NCBI GenBank assembly: GCA_903905455.1 | Contig: CAIVGN010000029.1 | Coordinates: forward strand, 62,001 to 126,000 | Length of the DNA stretch: 64,000 nt | Direction: 5' to 3' | Source: an uncultured Archangium sp. | GTDB lineage: Bacteria > Myxococcota > Myxococcia > Myxococcales > Myxococcaceae | Shown here: piece after piece, positions 40,030 through 49,354 of the stretch | How positions within the stretch are numbered: the stretch's first letter is position 1 | Layout of the letters: each line of letters begins with the position of its first letter | The notes under the pieces: model-generated | The model's input: the letters and a program-made list of their open reading frames with translations, nothing else | Database searches by the model: none | Told to the model about the DNA's origin: nothing | Made by a program: the position numbers and the translations under genes

Positions 40030-41868
40030 ATGCACGCTCTCCTCAGTGTCGTTGCAGCGATCGCTCTCGCGCAGGCGCCGGCCCCGAAGCCCGCCACGCC
40101 CGACGAAGCGAAGGCCTTCGTGAAGAAGCTCGACGCCGATCTCCGCAAGCTCTGGGTGCGGCAGTCGACGGCCGAGTGGGTCAAGTCCACGTACATCACC
40201 GACGACACCGAGCGGAACGCGGCGGCGATGAACGAAGACGTCATGGCCTACGTGACCCAGGCCACCAAGGACGCCCAGCGCTTCAAGGGCCTCAAGCTCG
40301 ACCCCGAGACCGAGCGCATGCTGTACCTCCTGCGCATGTCGACCGCGCTGCCCGCGCCGTCCGACGCCGCCAAGCGCACCGAGCTGGCGAACACCGCCGC
40401 GAAGCTCGAGGGCCTCTACGGCAAGGGCAAGTCGTGCAAGCCCGGCAAGCCGGGGAAGGACGGCAAGGCCACCGAGGAGTGCCGCGATCTCCAGCAACTC
40501 TCGAAGGTGATGACCCGCATCTCCGACAAGAAGCAGCCCGCCAGCTACGACGAGCTGCTCGAGGCCTGGTCGAGCTGGCACGCGACCTCGAAGGAGATGC
40601 GCCCCCTCTACGAGCGACTGGTCTCGCTCTCCAACGAGGGCGCGAAGGAGTTCGGCGCCCCGGACTTGGGCGAGCTCTGGCGCTCGGCCTACGACATGCC
40701 CCCGGCCGAGTTCGAGAAGGAGACCGACCGCCTGTGGAGCCAGGTCAAGCCGCTCTACGACGACCTCCACTGCTACGTGCGCGGCAAGTTGAGCAAGAAG
40801 TTCGGCGCGGACAAGGTGGGCGCCACCGGCCCCATCCCCGCGCACCTGCTCGGCAACATGTGGGCGCAGGAGTGGGCCAACGTCTATCCGCTGGTCGAGC
40901 CCTACGCCGGCCAGTCGAGCCTCGACGTGACCAAGAAGCTCGAGGCCCAGAAGTACGACCCGCAGAAGCTGGTGCGCCTGGGCGAGAGCTTCTTCACCTC
41001 GCTGGGCATGGACCCGCTGCCGTCGACCTTCTGGGAGCGCAGCCAGTTCGTCAAGCCGCCGGGCCGCGACGTGGTCTGCCACGCCAGCGCGTGGGACGTG
41101 ACCTTCGCCAACGATCTGCGCATCAAGATGTGCATCAAGATCGACGAGGAGGACCTGATCACCGTCCACCACGAGCTCGGTCACGACTACTACTTCCAGA
41201 ACTACTACACGAAGCCGGTGCTCTTTCAGCAGGGCGCCAACGACGGCTTCCACGAGGCCATCGGTGACGCGCTCACCCTGTCGATCACCCCCGAGTACCT
41301 GAAGTCACTCAAGCTCATCGACGCGCTGCCCAGGGACGAGAAGGGCCTCATCAACGTGCAGATGAAGGACGCCCTCGAGAAGATCGCCTTCCTCCCGTTC
41401 GGTCGCATGATCGACCAGTGGCGGTGGGACGTCTTCAGCGGGAAGGTGAAGCCTGGCGAGTACAACAAGCACTGGTGGGAGCTGCGCCTCAAGTACCAGG
41501 GCATCGCCCCGGCGGGCGGCGCGCGCAGCGAAGACTTCTTCGACCCGGGCGCGAAGTACCACATCCCCGCGAACGTCCCGTACATGCGCTACTTCCTGGC
41601 GCGCATCCTCCAGTTCCAGTTCCACCGGGCCATGTGCCAGGCCGCGGGTCATACCGGACCGCTGCACACCTGCAGCATCTACGGGAACAAGGCCGCCGGG
41701 GCGAAGCTCAAGGCGATGCTCGCCATGGGCGCCAGCAAGCCGTGGCCGGACGCGCTCGAGGCCCTCACCGGCCAGCGCCAGATGGATGCCACCGCGATCC
41801 TCGACTACTTCGCCCCCCTCCAGGCCTGGCTGAAAGAGCAGAACAAGGGCCAGCAGTGCGGGTGGTGA
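40030..41868 (+). CDS. M2-family peptidase, angiotensin-converting-enzyme-like
   Basis: A 612-residue exported (signal [16 protein letters not shown]) zinc dipeptidyl carboxypeptidase. The HExxH motif is H381-E382-L-G-H385 in [10 protein letters not shown], and the third ligand Glu409 lies in HEAIGD, exactly 24 residues after the second His, as in human ACE. Other M2 marks: [67 protein letters not shown] and TGQRQMDA. It removes C-terminal dipeptides from peptides in the periplasm or outside the cell. It ends the accA-cmk-kinase run, and a strong terminator begins at the next base. Confidence 0.93.
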
Positions 41869-41904
41869 CCTTTCACTTCTGAATATTTTTTCAGAAATGA
41901 AAGG
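41869..41904 (+). terminator. Strong hairpin terminator after the ACE-like gene
   Basis: CCTTTCACTTCTGA and TCAGAAATGAAAGG pair over 14 positions (13 matched, one mismatch), with an A/T-rich loop containing six T residues. Unusually AT-rich for this genome, so it stands out. It probably ends the accA-to-peptidase transcript and insulates the cold-shock gene. Confidence 0.72.
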
Positions 41905-41911
41905 TCGGCCG

Positions 41912-41941
41912 TGGACATTGCACACACCGGTCTCCTAAAAA
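41912..41941 (+). promoter_or_regulatory. Sigma70-type promoter for the cold-shock gene
   Basis: TGGACA (41912-41917) matches 5 of 6 of the -35 consensus, and TAAAAA (41936-41941) 4 of 6 of the -10, with an 18-base spacer. This would give a leader of about 45 bases, T- and C-rich (CTCCTCCCTCCTGC), before ATG 41994. By eye only. Confidence 0.45.
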
Positions 41942-41993
41942 GTGCTCCTCCCTCCTGCTTGTGGGTGGGGCAACTGAAGGACATCAGACGCAT

Positions 41994-42197
41994 ATGGCTA
42001 CTGGTACCGTGAAGTGGTTCAACGACGCGAAGGGCTTTGGGTTCATCACGCAGGACGGCGGGGGCGAAGACGTGTTTTGCCACCACACTGCGATCACGAT
42101 GGACGGGTTCCGCACCCTCCAGGAGGGTCAGAAGGTTGAGTTCGACGTGACCCGTGGCCCGAAGGGCCTCCAGGCGCAGAACGTTCGCGCCGTCTGA
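41994..42197 (+). CDS. Cold-shock domain protein (CspA family)
   Basis: A 67-residue single cold-shock domain. [20 protein letters not shown] includes RNP1 (KGFGFI) and DVFCHHTAI is the RNP2 variant (the usual DVFVH reads DVFCH). Start ATG 41994 gives the standard family N-terminus; an upstream GTG would add 11 foreign residues. Acts as a single-stranded nucleic-acid chaperone in the cytoplasm. It is insulated by a terminator upstream and a GC hairpin downstream (42236-42261), so it is a single gene. Confidence 0.95.
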
Positions 42198-42235
42198 ATC
42201 ACGCTCCACCGTTTCACCGAAGGACATCTACTCGG

Positions 42236-42261
42236 CCCGGCGGGGGGGATAACTCGCCGGG
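42236..42261 (+). terminator. GC hairpin after the cold-shock gene
   Basis: CCCGGCG (42236-42242) pairs perfectly with CGCCGGG (42255-42261) over a 12-base loop. No T-run follows, so it is only a possible terminator. The following gene starts at 42306. Confidence 0.4.
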
Positions 42262-42305
42262 TCGCTGTATGTCTGGGGCCCCAAGGTCCGCTAGGAAGCG
42301 CCGTC

Positions 42306-44306
42306 ATGTTCCTCCTGACGTTGGTGCTCGCGGCCTCCCCCATGAACACGAAAAGCATTGAAGCAGAGCTCCTCAAGACCCACGGGGAGGCCCAGCGCGC
42401 GCGCATCGAACGCGGCGTGCGGCAAGTCGCCACGCTGTGGCGCAAGGAGGACGGCGATCTCGGCGCGTTCGCCCGGGAGCACTTCCTCGTCGACCCGAAG
42501 GATCTCGACGCCACCTTCAACCGCTTCGAGGCGAACTTCGAGCAGCTCGACGGCCACTTCCTGGAGATCGGTCGCGAGCTGCGCAAGTCCACCGAGCTCG
42601 ACGTGGGGCCGATGCTCAAGGTCGACCCGTTCTTCGCCGAGTACGACGCGTCGGCGCACCTCACCGAGGACCTCTTCAACAACAAGCTGGGCTTCATGGT
42701 GCTGCTCAACTTCCCGCTCACCACGCTCGAGCAGCGGCTCGCGGCGAAGGACTGGTCGCGGCAGCAGTGGGCCGAGGCCAGGCTCGCCGCGCGCTTCGGT
42801 CGTCGCGTGCCCGCCGCCGTGCAGCAGGAGATCACCTCCGCCCAGTCGGCCGCCGACCTCTACATCGCCGAATACAACCTGTGGATGCACCACGTGCTGG
42901 CCGAGAAGGGCGAGCGGCTCTTCCCGAAGGGCAAGCGCCTCATCAGCCACTGGAACCTCCGCGACGAGCTCAAGGCGAACTACGCCGACAAGGACGGGCT
43001 CGAGAAGCAGCGCACGATCATCAAGGTGATGGAGCGCATCGTCACCCAGGCCATCCCCGCCTCGGTGATCAACAACCCGGGCGTCGACTGGAACCCCTTC
43101 ACCAACACCGTGGTCACCGCCGCGGCCGGCACCCTCGAAGACGACGCCCCGAAGAAGGGGGCCGCGCCCTCGACGAAGCCCGAGCCCGACGTGCGCTACG
43201 GGAAGCTGCAGGCCAACTACAAGGCGCAGGCGAAGGCCGACCCGTTCTCGCCCACCGCGCCCACGGCCATCGACCGCTCGTTCTCGCTGGGCGCGGAGAT
43301 GCCCGAGGCGCGGGTCAAGGAGCTGCTCGAGTCGGTCCTCAAGAGCCCGCTGGTGCCCCGGGTGGCCGCTCAGATCGAGAAGAAGGTCGGCCGCAAGCTC
43401 GAGCCCACGGATCTCTGGTTCAACGGCTTCCTGCCGCGCGGGTCGATCCCCGAGACGGAGTTGGACGCGAAGGTGCGCGCGAAGTACCCGAACGCGCCGG
43501 CCTTCGCGAAGGACATCCCGCGCATCCTCCAGGGCCTGGGCTTCAACGCCGAGCGCGCCCGGTACCTCTCGGAGCGCATCCTCGTCGACCCGTCACGCGG
43601 CGCTGGCCACGCGATGCAGTCGGCCCGCCGGGGTGACTTCCCCCACCTGCGCACCCGCGTGGAGAAGGAGGGCATGAACTACAAGGGCTACAACATCGCC
43701 GTCCACGAGCTGGGTCACAACGTCGAGCAGGTGTTCTCGCTCTACGACGTGGACCACACGCTGCTCGCCGGCGTGCCCAACACCGCCTTCACCGAGGCCA
43801 TCGCCTTCGTGTTCCAGGCGAAGGATCTCGAGCTGCTCGGCCTGGGCAAGCCCGACGCCGAGGCCGACCGCCTGCGCGTGCTCAACGACTTCTGGATGAC
43901 CTGGGAGATCGCCGGCGTGGCCCTGGTGGACATCGCGGTCTGGCACTGGATGTACGATCACCCGAAGGCGACGCCGGCCCAGCTGCGCGACGCGACGGTC
44001 GAGATCTCGAAGAAGACCTGGGACCAGTATTACGCCCCGGTCCTGGGCGGGAAGGGCACGCCGCTGCTCGGCATCTACTCCCACATGATCAGCTACCCGA
44101 TGTACCTCTTCAATTACCCGCTGGGTCACCTCATCGCGTTCCAGATCGAGGAGCAGGTGAAGAAGACCGGGAAGATCGGGCCGGAGATCGAGCGCATGTC
44201 GAAGGTCGGCGCGATCACCCCCGACGCGTGGATGGTCAACGCCAGCGGTGAACCGGTGTCCTCGGGGCCGCTGCTGCGCGCCACCGAGGCCGCCCTCGGG
44301 AAGTAA
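42306..44306 (+). CDS. Zinc metallopeptidase-like protein, gluzincin type (M2/M3-like)
   Basis: A 666-residue protein with a short hydrophobic N-terminus (MFLLTLVLAASPM). HExxH is at residues 467-471 (AVHELGHNVEQVF) and a likely third ligand Glu497 in FTEAIAFVF, 26 residues later, the gluzincin spacing. The C-terminal half is helical and aromatic-rich as in M2/M3 thimet-type peptidases, but the usual family signatures beyond HELGH were not found, so the family is left open. It is a different protein from the ACE-like gene 2.3 kb upstream; the two share only the general metal-site plan. Substrate unknown. Convergent with the lipoprotein gene at 44310, three bases apart. Confidence 0.8.
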   Translation: MFLLTLVLAASPMNTKSIEAELLKTHGEAQRARIERGVRQVATLWRKEDGDLGAFAREHFLVDPKDLDATFNRFEANFEQLDGHFLEIGRELRKSTELDVGPMLKVDPFFAEYDASAHLTEDLFNNKLGFMVLLNFPLTTLEQRLAAKDWSRQQWAEARLAARFGRRVPAAVQQEITSAQSAADLYIAEYNLWMHHVLAEKGERLFPKGKRLISHWNLRDELKANYADKDGLEKQRTIIKVMERIVTQAIPASVINNPGVDWNPFTNTVVTAAAGTLEDDAPKKGAAPSTKPEPDVRYGKLQANYKAQAKADPFSPTAPTAIDRSFSLGAEMPEARVKELLESVLKSPLVPRVAAQIEKKVGRKLEPTDLWFNGFLPRGSIPETELDAKVRAKYPNAPAFAKDIPRILQGLGFNAERARYLSERILVDPSRGAGHAMQSARRGDFPHLRTRVEKEGMNYKGYNIAVHELGHNVEQVFSLYDVDHTLLAGVPNTAFTEAIAFVFQAKDLELLGLGKPDAEADRLRVLNDFWMTWEIAGVALVDIAVWHWMYDHPKATPAQLRDATVEISKKTWDQYYAPVLGGKGTPLLGIYSHMISYPMYLFNYPLGHLIAFQIEEQVKKTGKIGPEIERMSKVGAITPDAWMVNASGEPVSSGPLLRATEAALGK

Positions 44307-44309
44307 GGG

Positions 44310-45206
44310 TCAGAAGCCGTCGACCGTCGCGCACGCGGCTTCGGTCCCGCTCGTCACGCCGCCCGGCCACGACTGGGCGGAATAGACGAGCGTGAAGCCC
44401 GTGCCCCAGCACTCGGTGACGGTGAACGCCTGCTGCGTGCCCGCGCGCACCAGGCCCACGCTGCGGCCTTCGCCGGTGGGCTTCCAGCGCGACTCCAGCT
44501 CGAGTTCGGTCACTTCGGGCCCGGGGCTGGCGACCGAGAAACGCAGCAGGCCTGAGCCGTCTGGCTGCACGAAGCTCGAATAGCCGAGCCGCGAGAGGGT
44601 GCTGCTGCCGCCGGCCTTGAAGGCGAAGCCCATGCTCGCGAACTTCGGGAACGCCGCGGTGCCGTAGTCGAGGCTGATCTCGTCGAGCTGCTTGAAGGTG
44701 TCGTCCACCGCCAGCACGTCACGGAAGTCCTTCACCGCCACCACGATCCGGCCCACGCCGGCCCGCGCGCTGTCCGTCACGTCGTAGGTGCCGGTGAACA
44801 TGCGCAGGAAGGCCCCGTTGCTCGGCTTCGAGTCGATGTGCCACTCGAAGTGCGTCTCGTCGCTGCGGGTGATCACCAACTGCACCTGGCGCCCCGGGTT
44901 GTTGGCGTCGTCGAAGGGACCCCAGGTGCGCGAGTCCGCGGTGCGCGTGGTCGGCGCGAGCAGGCGCAGTTGGTCGACCAGGGTCAGCACCGCGTCGAGA
45001 ATGCCGTTGTAGGCCGTCGCCGCCGCGCGGGTCTGTGCCCAGGAGCCCGCCGGCTCGCCTTCCGTGGCGGTGGTGCCGACGGGCAGGTGCACCTTGAACT
45101 CTTCGCGCCGGGGCAGGGCGCTGGCGAAGGTGAGATCGGTGGTCGACCAGTTGCCGCCGCAACCGGCGAAAAGCCCGCACACCACGCTGAAGAGGAGGGC
45201 GCGCAT
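44310..45206 (-). CDS. Lipoprotein of unknown function
   Basis: A 298-residue predicted lipoprotein (MRALLFSVVCGLFAGC; Cys16 lipobox FAGC). The body is beta-rich with repeated LxVxI-type strands (VQLVITRSDETHFEWHI, GRIVVAVKDFRDVLAV, FTVTECWGTGFTLVYS), perhaps a single beta-sandwich or barrel; two or three cysteines (TECWG, EAACATV) could form a disulfide. No domain recognised. Three bases after the stop of the caspase-like gene, so the two form an operon, and it may be its outer-membrane partner. Confidence 0.7.
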   Translation of the reverse strand: MRALLFSVVCGLFAGCGGNWSTTDLTFASALPRREEFKVHLPVGTTATEGEPAGSWAQTRAAATAYNGILDAVLTLVDQLRLLAPTTRTADSRTWGPFDDANNPGRQVQLVITRSDETHFEWHIDSKPSNGAFLRMFTGTYDVTDSARAGVGRIVVAVKDFRDVLAVDDTFKQLDEISLDYGTAAFPKFASMGFAFKAGGSSTLSRLGYSSFVQPDGSGLLRFSVASPGPEVTELELESRWKPTGEGRSVGLVRAGTQQAFTVTECWGTGFTLVYSAQSWPGGVTSGTEAACATVDGF

Positions 45207-45209
45207 CGG

Positions 45210-46790
45210 TCAGTCCTTGAACTCGTAGTCGAGCAGGGCCCCGAAGTCGGCGTTGCCCAGGCTCCGCGTCTCGTCGACGTTGAAGAGCAGGTAGTGCACC
45301 CGGGCTCGGGCGATCACCGAGATGCTCTTCGAGATCCGCACCTTGAGGCCGCCGACCACGCCGGGGGTGAAGGTCGAGAAGCCCTGCTGCGCGATCGCGC
45401 TGTCGGTGAAGGTGCGGGTGAAGATGTCGAAGCCCACGTGCACGCCGACGAAGGGCACAAAGCGCCCGTCCTGGAACCACTCGTGCCACAGCGAGCCGCC
45501 GAAGGTGACCAGCGTGTAGTTGTAGGCGGCCGCGCCGACGAGGGGGGCCTGGAGCGAGCCCGACATCCACCCGTAGCTGCCGTCGATCGACAGCGAGAAG
45601 CCCCTGAAGAACACGTTGTGCAGCGTCGCCTCGCCGCCCAGCAGCGGCGCGGAGGGGAAGGCGTCACCGAAGGCCACCTGGTACTGGCCGGACACGGCGA
45701 GGCTCCAGTGCCGAGAGAAGCTCGAGCTCACGCCGGTGCCCCGCACCGGGTCGTCGGTGAACTTCGCGTTCTGGAAGCTCCCCTCGTCGAGGGTGAGGAA
45801 CTGGCCGTCGGCGATCTCCACGCGGCCCAGGCGCAAGTGATCGGCGAGGCGTCGCTTGAGGACGTAGGCGCCGGGCGGGAGCGCGAGGAGTCGATCTCCC
45901 TCGCCCTTCACCGTCTCGGCGACCACGACGCCGCGCGGGTCGATGACGAAGTAGGGCCCCGTCGGCGCGCTGGAAGGAATGCGCAGCCCTTCGCCACGCG
46001 CGGCGAGATCGGTCAGCGGCACGTCGGCGTTGGCCTGGAGATCGAACAGCGGCGGCGGCTCGAGGGGCGCCACGGCCGCGCTGGCCAGGGTGCGCTCGTA
46101 GGCCCACGCGAAGGCCTCGCCGAGGGTGACGCGGCCGTCCCCCTGCGCGTCGGCGCTCCCGAGGAGCCCGGTGGCCAGGTAGTACGAGAAGTAGCTCCCC
46201 GCGATGAGGTCTGATTCCTGCGCGCCCTCGTCGGTGGCCGCGGCGGTGACGATCACCAGCCCCTTCGCCTGCCGGGTCGCGTCGGTCTCGACCTCGAACA
46301 CCGGCGCGCGACGTACGCCCTTGTCCTTCAGGAAGTCGCCCGAGCGGCAGGTGTCGAGGAAGGCGAGGCGCGTGTCGGCGAGGCCCGTCGCCAGGCGCGT
46401 CTTGAGCGCCTCGAGGGGCAGCTTCGTCGTGCCCAGGCGCAGCGAGCCGTCCCTGGCGTGGCCAGAGAAGTAGACCAGCAGGCTGGTGACCTCGCCCCGG
46501 GCCTTGGCGTCGCGAACCCGGCGCTCGAGCTCGCCCAGCGCGGTGGTCACGTCCTCGGCCGGCTCGTCGAGGAGCAGCATCGCGTCTTCGGGCTTCACGC
46601 CGCCGAGCCGCACGAAGACCTCGTGCAGGCGCCTGGCGTCCTCGCGCGCGTAGAGCAGCGGGCGGGTGCCCTCGCCCCCTTCGTTCTGGCCCAGGAACAG
46701 GCCGAAGCGGTGCACCGGGCCTTCCGCGAACGTGAACGTGCTCCAGAGCAGGGTCAGCAGGACGGCGCGGTGGCAGCAGGAGGTGATCAC
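45210..46790 (-). CDS. Exported caspase-like protease with C-terminal beta-barrel
   Basis: A 526-residue exported protein. GTG 46790 is chosen because it starts a signal peptide (CCHRAVLLTLLWSTFTFAEG); an earlier GTG at 46838 runs into the promoter of the divergent M48 gene. Residues about 27-260 are a caspase/metacaspase (C14) domain: LFLGQNEGG, YAREDARRLHEVFVRLGG, SLLVYFSGHARDG with catalytic His111, and LAFLDTCRSGDF with catalytic Cys148, then a VTAAATDEGAQES segment. Residues 265-345 form a beta-sandwich-like linker. Residues about 350-526 look like an outer-membrane barrel: alternating strands with aromatic ends (WSLAVSGQYQVAF, FSLSIDGSYGW, NYTLVTFGGSLWHEWF, ADFGALLDYEFKD). This would put the protease on one face of the outer membrane. 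Confidence 0.85.
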   Translation of the reverse strand: MITSCCHRAVLLTLLWSTFTFAEGPVHRFGLFLGQNEGGEGTRPLLYAREDARRLHEVFVRLGGVKPEDAMLLLDEPAEDVTTALGELERRVRDAKARGEVTSLLVYFSGHARDGSLRLGTTKLPLEALKTRLATGLADTRLAFLDTCRSGDFLKDKGVRRAPVFEVETDATRQAKGLVIVTAAATDEGAQESDLIAGSYFSYYLATGLLGSADAQGDGRVTLGEAFAWAYERTLASAAVAPLEPPPLFDLQANADVPLTDLAARGEGLRIPSSAPTGPYFVIDPRGVVVAETVKGEGDRLLALPPGAYVLKRRLADHLRLGRVEIADGQFLTLDEGSFQNAKFTDDPVRGTGVSSSFSRHWSLAVSGQYQVAFGDAFPSAPLLGGEATLHNVFFRGFSLSIDGSYGWMSGSLQAPLVGAAAYNYTLVTFGGSLWHEWFQDGRFVPFVGVHVGFDIFTRTFTDSAIAQQGFSTFTPGVVGGLKVRISKSISVIARARVHYLLFNVDETRSLGNADFGALLDYEFKD

Positions 46791-46882
46791 GGCGAGACGG
46801 GCGCCCCGTGTACCTGAACTCGGGGCCCGGGGAAGCACACGATTTCCCCAGCAGTCGCGGGGCGTTGGGGTATGCGCGCCGC

Positions 46883-47689
46883 ATGAACCGTTCGGCCCTG
46901 CTCGCCCTTTGTATCTTTGCCTCTGCCTGCACGCTCACCCAGCGCCGCGACACCGAGAAGGTGATCGCCCAATCGCTGATCTCCGACGACCAGGAGTTCC
47001 AGCTCGGCCTGCAGGTTCACGAGCAGCTCAAGAAGGACAACACCAAGTTCCTCGAGAACCCCACCGTCGAGCTCTACGTCGAGTCGCTGGCGCGCAAGAT
47101 GATCGCCGAGGCCAACAAGGAGCGGAAGCTCGACTGGAAGTGGTTCGTGATCGACGACCCGGCGACCGTCAACGCCTTCGCCACCCCCGGCGGGCGCATC
47201 TACGTCTACACCGGCCTGCTCCTGGCCGCGGAGAACGAGGCCGAGGTGATCGGCGTGCTGGGCCACGAGATCGGCCACGTCGTCGGTCGCCACTCGGCGC
47301 GGCAGTTGGTCGCGTCCAACGGGCTCCAGGTGGTGGTCGACATGGCCCTGGGCAAGAACGGCGGCGAGGTCGCGAAGCTCGCGGCTGGCCTGGCGGGCAA
47401 GGGCGCGCAGCTCGCCTATGGCCGGGACATGGAGCTCGAGGCCGACCAGTACGGCGCGCGCTACGCCTCGGGTGCCGGCTACGACCCCCGCGGGCTGGCC
47501 ACCTTCTTCGAGAAGCTCAAGGCGAAGTACGGCGACACGGGCCCGGTCATGACCTTCTTCTCCACGCACCCGGCGAACAGCGACCGCATCACCAAGGTGA
47601 CCGAGCTCATCGCCGCCGAGAACCTCCAGGGCACGGAGCTCGGGGTGACGTCGCTCAAGGCCGCCCAGGCAGCGCTCGGGAAGAAGTGA
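46883..47689 (+). CDS. M48-family lipoprotein metalloprotease (BepA/LoiP-like)
   Basis: A 268-residue predicted lipoprotein (SALLALCIFASAC; Cys16) with an M48 peptidase domain. The zinc site HEIGH is at residues 128-132 (LGHEIGHVVGRHSARQ), preceded by the M48 marks NAFATPGGRIYVYTGLL and followed by the third ligand in MELEADQYGARYAS. The C-terminal helix FSTHPANSDRITKV is also typical. M48 lipoproteins of this size degrade misassembled outer-membrane proteins in the periplasm. Divergent from the caspase-like gene across 92 bases. The start ATG 46883 is favoured by the signal peptide. Confidence 0.92.
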   Translation: MNRSALLALCIFASACTLTQRRDTEKVIAQSLISDDQEFQLGLQVHEQLKKDNTKFLENPTVELYVESLARKMIAEANKERKLDWKWFVIDDPATVNAFATPGGRIYVYTGLLLAAENEAEVIGVLGHEIGHVVGRHSARQLVASNGLQVVVDMALGKNGGEVAKLAAGLAGKGAQLAYGRDMELEADQYGARYASGAGYDPRGLATFFEKLKAKYGDTGPVMTFFSTHPANSDRITKVTELIAAENLQGTELGVTSLKAAQAALGKK

Positions 47690-47738
47690 CTTGGCCCGTC
47701 GGCCGGCCTAAAACCGCGAACCTTTTTCTGGGGAGCTC

Positions 47739-48671
47739 ATGAAGCGATATTTCGGGATCATCGTAGCCGTCATCGGCGTGTGCGCCGGCATCGTCTGGAC
47801 GATGCGCAAGTGGGACGCGAAGACGGCAGAGGCCGCGCGCGAGCTGAACATGCAGCGCATCCGGGGCGACTACCTCGAGCGCGCGGCGTGGCTGCGCAAC
47901 GTGCCCGACCAGAAGCTCTACATCGACGAGAACCAGAACTTCCTGCGCTGGTACTTCAAGGAGGTCACCGAGCACCTCAACAAGCACGGCGGCAACCGTG
48001 ACTTCGACGACTACTTGAAGGAACTCGACGCCCGCTCGGCCAAGTCCTCCAAGGACGACGAGGGTGGCAAGACCGAGCAGAAGAAGGCCCGCTACGAGTA
48101 CGCGCGCAAGGTCTTCGACTCGTTCAAGAAGGCCGACTACGCCCCGTGGTGGACGGCGACCGACAAGGGCATCCGCTTCGACATCGTCAGCGCCGACACC
48201 ATTCGCGTCGGTCCGGACGACAAGATTCACATGCCGGTGGTCGTCTGGGGCCTGCCCCGCGACTCGCGCACCGACGACAAGGGCTTCACCCGTGTCACGG
48301 TCAACGCCAGCTTCCGCTTCAACTGGAAGCTCTACGACGAGAAGCAGAAGCTGATCGCCGAGATCCCCGGCGAAGGTGGCCCCGACAGCCGCGATGACGT
48401 GCCTGATCGCGTGGTGAAGTTCTTCCCGCCCATGGTGGTGATCGGCCAGTACGACATCGACAAGCTCCCGGCCGAGACCAAGACCGCGGAGATTGAGTGG
48501 AGCATCGCGGCGCGCACCCCGACGGGTGGCGACATCAACGCCACGTTCCAGTGGAAGGGCGAAGTGCCCGCCGCCTGGAAGCTCGGCGCCGGCGAAGGCT
48601 GGAAGGGCGCGACCGACTCCATCCGCCCCGAAGAAGAGATCGACCCGAACGCCGGCAAGAAGAAGAAGTAA
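47739..48671 (+). CDS. Membrane-anchored protein of unknown function
   Basis: A 310-residue protein with one N-terminal transmembrane helix (MKRYFGIIVAVIGVCAGIVW) and a large extracytoplasmic or periplasmic part. GGGGAGCTC precedes the ATG. The body has a charged helical section (residues about 30-125, rich in Lys, Asp and Glu) and a beta-rich part (IRFDIVSADTIRVGPDDKI, VTVNASFRFNWKLYDEKQ, AEIEWSIAARTPTGGDINA) and ends in a Lys tail. No domain recognised. Follows M48 by 49 bases on the same strand; co-transcription is possible. Confidence 0.72.
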   Translation: MKRYFGIIVAVIGVCAGIVWTMRKWDAKTAEAARELNMQRIRGDYLERAAWLRNVPDQKLYIDENQNFLRWYFKEVTEHLNKHGGNRDFDDYLKELDARSAKSSKDDEGGKTEQKKARYEYARKVFDSFKKADYAPWWTATDKGIRFDIVSADTIRVGPDDKIHMPVVVWGLPRDSRTDDKGFTRVTVNASFRFNWKLYDEKQKLIAEIPGEGGPDSRDDVPDRVVKFFPPMVVIGQYDIDKLPAETKTAEIEWSIAARTPTGGDINATFQWKGEVPAAWKLGAGEGWKGATDSIRPEEEIDPNAGKKKK

Positions 48672-48682
48672 GCGGCTCGTCG

Positions 48683-49354
48683 TCAGTCGTGGAAACCCAC
48701 CACCTGCCACGCAGCGCCGGCCTGGCGCAGCAGCAGGATGGTGGGGTGTCCCGAGAGGTTGCCCACCGCGAGATAGGTGTTCGGTGCGCGCCAGTTCCAC
48801 GAGTTGAGTCGCTGGGGCGGCTTGCCGAACTTCTTCTCCATGTCGGCAGGCAGCAACACCTCGACCGAGTACAGCTTGAGCACGTCAGCGCGGCGCGACC
48901 TCAGGCTCTTGCCCCACTGCGCGCGCAGTTCCTCCGGCCGGTCGATGCGCCGGGCCTCCATGAAGAACGGGTAGCCCGACCGCGCCACGATGCGGTTGGT
49001 GTCGCCGCCGATGAGATCGGCGAAGAAGCCGCGCGCCACCACTTCGACCTGCTGGGCCGGTCCCAGGGCCAGGTACTTGTCGAGATCGATGTCGTTGGTG
49101 GGGAGCACGGGGTTCGAGTCCACCGTGCCGAACTGCTTTTGCAGCGCCTCGAGCACCACCGCGCGCTCCGCCGGGCTGAGCGTCTGCGCCTTCTGGATCT
49201 GGCGCGTCACGTCGTCGGCGCCCTTGGGCCGGGGCGGACCCACCGGCGTCGCGGGCGAGGTGGCGGCGTCACCACCCGCAGCGGCAGCGGCGGGGACGGG
49301 CTCGGGGTCCTGCGAGAGGGCGAGACACAGCGCGTAGGCGGCGACGTTGATCAC
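48683..49354 (-). CDS. Exported protein of unknown function
   Basis: A 223-residue protein starting at GTG 49354. The N-terminus (INVAAYALCLALSQDPEPV) could be a signal peptide; it is followed by an Ala/Pro-rich low-complexity linker to residue 45, a helical part (SPAERAVVLEALQKQFG) and a C-terminal alpha/beta unit ending in a strand-rich segment (TYLAVGNLSGHPTILLLR, AWQVVGFHD). This C-terminal pattern resembles an SnoaL/NTF2-like or lumazine-type fold, but only by shape. Lies nine bases after the MFS transporter stop on the same strand, so likely its operon partner. Confidence 0.65.
   Translation of the reverse strand: MINVAAYALCLALSQDPEPVPAAAAAGGDAATSPATPVGPPRPKGADDVTRQIQKAQTLSPAERAVVLEALQKQFGTVDSNPVLPTNDIDLDKYLALGPAQQVEVVARGFFADLIGGDTNRIVARSGYPFFMEARRIDRPEELRAQWGKSLRSRRADVLKLYSVEVLLPADMEKKFGKPPQRLNSWNWRAPNTYLAVGNLSGHPTILLLRQAGAAWQVVGFHD

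Follow-up and report, generated by a model that had tools for sequence, protein, structure and literature searches.

In the DegS/RseA/sigma-E system, as in the operons described here, a membrane anti-sigma factor keeps an ECF sigma factor in check, and the first cut that we propose would likewise be periplasmic; DegS, however, is an inner-membrane PDZ serine protease, whereas the protein considered here has a caspase fold predicted to sit on the outer membrane. FecA/FecR/FecI cell-surface signalling resembles these operons in bringing together an outer-membrane protein, a membrane anti-sigma and an ECF sigma factor in one locus, but its outer-membrane protein is a large TonB-dependent receptor that bears a signalling domain, in place of which we find a small, predicted eight-stranded barrel carrying a protease. 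In the Craspase system (Csx29-Csx30-CASP-sigma), a caspase-like (CHAT) protease cuts an inhibitor and so relieves an ECF-like sigma factor; this system differs in that it belongs to a CRISPR complex and is activated by RNA, and the sections of the paper drawn on here describe neither an outer-membrane part nor a membrane anti-sigma (PMC10028731). ECF54 loci also have an ECF sigma gene beside genes for caspase-like (CHAT) and subtilase proteases, but were described without an anti-sigma factor (PMC8999054), which is present in the operons below.

Predicted operons that combine metacaspase and sigma-factor genes have been reported, in the sections of the source used here, from M. xanthus, Anaeromyxobacter, Haliangium, Sorangium and others (Asplund-Samuelsson et al. 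2012, PMC3501461). Going by those sections, the M. xanthus metacaspase-sigma-70 operons very likely belong to the same family as the gene analysed here; the same sections mention no membrane anti-sigma, flanking lipoproteins, outer-membrane barrel or mechanism. A search of titles and abstracts, which left most subscription journals uncovered and is weak evidence of novelty, returned no outer-membrane-barrel caspase and no anti-sigma partner of one.

A caspase domain joined to a predicted outer-membrane barrel

The gene lies in a 64,000-nucleotide stretch of an uncultured Archangium sp. contig (CAIVGN010000029.1), hereafter the window. An earlier note, made from the sequence, had read in its product a signal peptide, a caspase-like domain and, fused to the latter, a predicted outer-membrane barrel, and Pfam, AlphaFold and structure matches all support that architecture (Table 1). 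Codon usage of the reading frame is typical of a real gene. The protein matched Peptidase_C14 (PF00656) with an E-value of 1.8e-6 and 28.3 bits, above the gathering cut-off of 21.4; the NCBIfam model for caspases of the EACC1-associated type gave 47.8 bits, below its curated cut-off of 140. In VIA structure comparison, residues 26-262 of the predicted model matched metacaspase-4, caspase-8 and legumain at a Z of about 15, which corresponds to the caspase/haemoglobinase fold. The intact His-Cys dyad, on whose retention in homologues the earlier reading had been made to depend, is borne out by an alignment of 54 homologues in which H111 and C148 are invariant; His and Cys are also kept in the aligned paralogues inspected. 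D51 and D146, candidate S1-pocket acids, are invariant in the same alignment. The described S1 candidates of TbMCA2 are Asp95 and Asp211, and metacaspases cleave after Arg or Lys at P1 (PMC4357240). Our own mapping of D51 and D146 onto these residues was made by motif, and taken by itself suggests Arg/Lys-P1 proteolysis as a candidate activity of the window protein.

The AlphaFold model, built from a 54-sequence alignment, had a mean pLDDT of 82.7, with segments of low confidence in the signal peptide and at residues 150-176 and 240-248. Its C-terminal part consists of eight long antiparallel strands, from residue 361 to 524 (pLDDT about 90), and structure comparison of the predicted model aligned residues 357-526 with the OmpW, OprF, NspA and OmpA barrels at a Z of about 18. 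The barrel part of the window protein, scanned alone, gave no Pfam match; when the 54 homologues were scanned singly, 15 matched Opacity (best 1.6e-5) and seven matched OMP_b-brl (best 1.2e-4). Alternation of outward hydrophobic residues is visible in several barrel strands, no single strand being significant in a per-strand test of amphipathicity. Modelling of the C-terminal part, which the earlier note had put forward as a check, thus yielded a barrel and not a soluble beta domain. Its estimate of some 175 residues of barrel-like strands holds in that eight strands match outer-membrane barrels, but the barrel proper covers about 357-526 and a separate small beta domain (258-342) stands before it; similarly, the aromatic C-terminus that it described is present as F524, which is third from the end (..YEFKD) and not the last residue.

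Table 1. Features of the caspase-barrel locus (window coordinates).
Feature	Position	Strand	Basis or remark
Caspase-barrel protein, 526 aa, GTG start	45210..46790	-	Intact ORF; Pfam; predicted structure
Predicted signal peptide, residues 1-22, MITSCCHRAVLLTLLWSTFTFA	46725..46790	-	Read from sequence; N-terminus hydrophobic in orthologues too
Caspase (Peptidase_C14) domain, residues 26-257	46020..46715	-	Pfam, AlphaFold, structure comparison
Predicted catalytic His111 codon	46458..46460	-	Invariant, 54 homologues
Predicted catalytic Cys148 codon (D146-x-C148)	46347..46349	-	Invariant, 54 homologues
Caspase region, residues 181-255, holding the majority of the 21 near-invariant residues that are lost (the QHP motif and a small deletion among them)	46026..46250	-	Homologue alignment
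Small beta domain, residues 258-342	45765..46019	-	AlphaFold; no Pfam name
Predicted 8-stranded outer-membrane barrel, residues 357-526	45213..45722	-	AlphaFold, structure comparison, homologue Pfam matches
Partner lipoprotein, lipobox Cys16	44310..45206	-	3 bases downstream of caspase-barrel gene; family in 61/61 testable loci
92-bp gap, caspase-barrel start to divergent M48 start	46791..46882	.	ECF sigma and anti-sigma genes here in relatives
Divergent M48 lipoprotein peptidase, BepA/LoiP-like	46883..47689	+	Adjoins the same operon in five of the loci compared

Outer-membrane barrels have both their N- and C-termini in the periplasm, and twelve-stranded autotransporters are the exception to the periplasmic placing of a domain before the barrel. 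Eight strands are predicted in the window protein, not the 12-stranded C-terminal barrel of a classical (type Va) autotransporter. A caspase domain N-terminal to a closed eight-stranded barrel would be expected to face the periplasm, which disfavours surface or contact-dependent action; we infer from the model that it would be tethered at the inner face of the outer membrane, on the periplasmic side. The cell-cell killing or surface processing suggested previously finds no support, as a periplasmic topology is expected and the operon context points to ECF sigma control.

ECF sigma and membrane anti-sigma genes accompany the family at nearly all loci

The fusion had been called unusual, and a search for it in other genomes had been advised; that search recovered full-length orthologues across the Myxococcaceae and Anaeromyxobacter, and the family turned out to be present in most Myxococcaceae genomes examined, often in several copies. 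A match to the window protein at an E-value of 1e-10 or better was found in 118 of 144 related genomes, the best matches mostly spanning the whole protein, and named records with relatives include Archangium, Corallococcus, Myxococcus, Pyxidicoccus, Hyalangium and Anaeromyxobacter. Sixty-four untruncated loci had enough upstream sequence, and in 63 of these an ECF sigma gene and the gene of a membrane anti-sigma lie just upstream of the caspase-barrel gene; at the remaining locus (L089) the sigma gene is present and the anti-sigma match is oddly placed. A lipoprotein gene is found upstream in 58 of the 64 loci, and one of the same family downstream in all 61 loci that were testable on that side. 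The sigma gene of relatives gave Sigma70_r2 and region-4 matches, and their anti-sigma protein combines an HxxxCxxC motif with one transmembrane or hydrophobic segment and a periplasmic part; one anti-sigma paralogue matched zf-HC2 and DUF4384 weakly. The linkage recurs among paralogues: both of those in the window's genome (C56 and C72) sit with a sigma/anti-sigma pair, and a caspase gene is adjacent in 38 of the 40 paralogous anti-sigma loci read. More distant Myxococcota records keep the linkage in a different order, with the caspase gene before the pair. In our best explanation the ancestral order would be lipoprotein, ECF sigma, membrane anti-sigma, caspase-barrel, lipoprotein.

Some loci depart from this pattern or carry other features. 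At L192 (2491-6264) a same-family ECF/anti-sigma pair is followed by two secreted matrixin-like metallopeptidases (HESGHxxGLxH), with no caspase, and at L207 (3011-3781) an anti-sigma gene of the same family, its K-G site kept, has no caspase gene detected in the 6.8 kb of sequence examined. A complete five-gene operon of myxobacterial type occurs in a record titled Comamonas sp. (L094, BNCN01000006.1), which is probably mislabelled or contaminated. In a Myxococcales MAG (L110, 3224-4607) a frameshift appears to interrupt the barrel-coding part of the caspase-barrel gene.

In the window, the lipoprotein operon partner and the divergent M48 lipoprotease are both present as the earlier note had described. 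The lipoprotein was modelled by AF2 at a pLDDT of 93, and its fold found no convincing match among solved structures (best Foldseek E-value, 0.04). VIA gave a Z of 8.8 to porins, with an rmsd near 9, and also a match to OspA, none of them convincing. In most relatives a member of this lipoprotein family flanks the operon at each end. The caspase-barrel and M48 genes are part of a cluster of peptidase-like genes (40030-48671) which also includes an M2 peptidase of the ACE family (40030-41868) and a 666-residue protein (42306-44306) that carries a HELGH zinc motif and matches nothing in Pfam.

Loss of the sigma/anti-sigma pair and a rate shift in the window copy

Genes for the ZAS anti-sigma and cognate ECF sigma are absent upstream of the caspase-barrel gene in the window, and a search elsewhere in its genome found no close homologues of the pair, only paralogous genes of about 35% identity. 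The pair is retained at the closest relative locus (L033), with the same genes on either side, so that a deletion in the window's lineage would be the simplest reading; an assembly error in the window's contig may instead explain the missing genes. Loci L036 and L064 (genome G002) were left out of this comparison, their contig beginning within the caspase gene. The window copy looks like a decoupled caspase-barrel with an intact dyad.

Window-specific changes in the caspase domain outnumbered those of the congener by 45 to 3 (against L061, outgroup L064; p ~1e-9) and by 41 to 10 (against L063, outgroup L071; p ~1e-5), and outgroups L065 and L069 gave similar results. The shift was modest in the barrel (28:10), weak and outgroup-dependent in the partner lipoprotein, and absent from the small beta domain and from the flanking genes (M48, 18:29; the gene at 47739, 22:18; the gene at 42306, 20:16; and likewise the gene at 48683). 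Compared with Myxococcaceae-type homologues, the window protein differs at 21 of the 100 caspase positions that are nearly invariant, and these changes cluster at 181-190 and 235-255; the next worst of the homologues departs at nine and the median is 0. Counted per site, window-specific changes are similar in the caspase domain (45/232) and the barrel (28/170); we therefore read the pattern as a relaxation of the whole protein that is clearest where constraint is strongest, the contrast between the two domains arising partly from the strong constraint on the caspase domain elsewhere. Pairwise dN/dS is below 1 in every domain. We take selection on the caspase domain of the window copy to be relaxed or altered, with the dyad still in place; the relaxation also fits a loss of expression.

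Proposed mechanism and alternatives

Because of the linkage, the predicted shared compartment and the shift in constraint, the anti-sigma is the best candidate substrate, and linkage to a sigma/anti-sigma pair suggests a new kind of envelope sensor. Location, activity, substrate and sensing, which we infer beyond the computed architecture, operon, loss and rate shift, would fit together as follows. A caspase-type (C14) protease would sit in the periplasm, anchored to the outer membrane's inner face by the eight-stranded barrel that it carries. Some change at that membrane, probably perceived by way of the barrel and the lipoproteins, would let the caspase act on the anti-sigma, whose periplasmic part it would cleave close to the membrane, behind a basic residue; this would lead to release of the ECF sigma factor. 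The cognate pair would have been deleted from the window's genome, leaving the caspase-barrel copy decoupled. To this account as a whole, with the first cut on the anti-sigma and decoupling in the window, we assign a probability of about 0.45. A putative cut site is available in the anti-sigma proteins, where K108 is invariant (49/49) within an R-x-K-G directly after the transmembrane segment. This motif was dropped as proof of cleavage, since the caspase-less loci L192 and L207 also keep K-G; it is thus a candidate only, and may be structural.

The linkage would fit equally well if the caspase were an output of the sigma factor instead of its activator, that is, an envelope-stress periplasmic protease that clears or processes envelope proteins and takes no part in sigma activation. 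ECF operons commonly autoregulate and include effectors, an adjoining divergent M48 peptidase of the BepA/LoiP-like, quality-control type is found in several genera, and the two metallopeptidases of L192 occupy the caspase's place after the pair. Tighter coupling is nevertheless suggested by the order sigma, anti-sigma, protease, which holds in nearly all loci and is repeated in paralogues, and by the strong relaxation of the caspase domain once the pair was lost, though loss of expression would account for the latter too; we consider a role as sigma output quite possible, though somewhat less likely than the activating role. Decay of the window copy into a gene with no present function would be compatible with the best explanation of the family, and the lost operon partners, the 21 altered near-invariant positions and the fast barrel (less clearly the lipoprotein) are in line with it. 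Since the 526-codon frame is intact, the dyad and the lipoprotein are kept and dN/dS stays below 1 throughout, we regard such decay as rather unlikely.

A protease of development or cell death, active in periplasmic lysis during fruiting-body formation or predation, would accord with the abundance of metacaspases in developmentally complex Deltaproteobacteria and with the lysis role suggested for Myxococcus, as given in the sections of the 2012 study used here (PMC3501461). The operon has no toxin or lysis gene, however, and this makes such a role improbable. Its distribution points the same way, the caspase-barrel being found also in Anaeromyxobacter, which to our knowledge does not fruit. 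Least probable is passage of the caspase domain through the barrel to the surface, where it would act on neighbours as autotransporters do: N-terminal passenger and C-terminal barrel are in the classical order, but the strands number eight against twelve and the matches are to closed barrels of the OmpA/OmpW/NspA type.

Should the anti-sigma be cut as we propose, myxobacterial outer-membrane-anchored proteases of caspase fold might make the first cut on membrane anti-sigmas more generally, in a many-paralogue form of envelope sensing distinct from DegS-type and TonB-receptor-type signalling; we offer this extension tentatively, at less than even odds. The retention of many caspase homologues in multicellular and predatory bacteria has long called for a reason, and the one usually given is cell death. 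A conserved caspase, predicted to lie at the outer membrane and linked to an ECF sigma factor with its membrane anti-sigma, would provide a concrete and testable role other than death, with a candidate substrate and a candidate cut site, and the window's genome, in which the sigma pair and the constraint on the protease domain have both been lost, constitutes a natural experiment.
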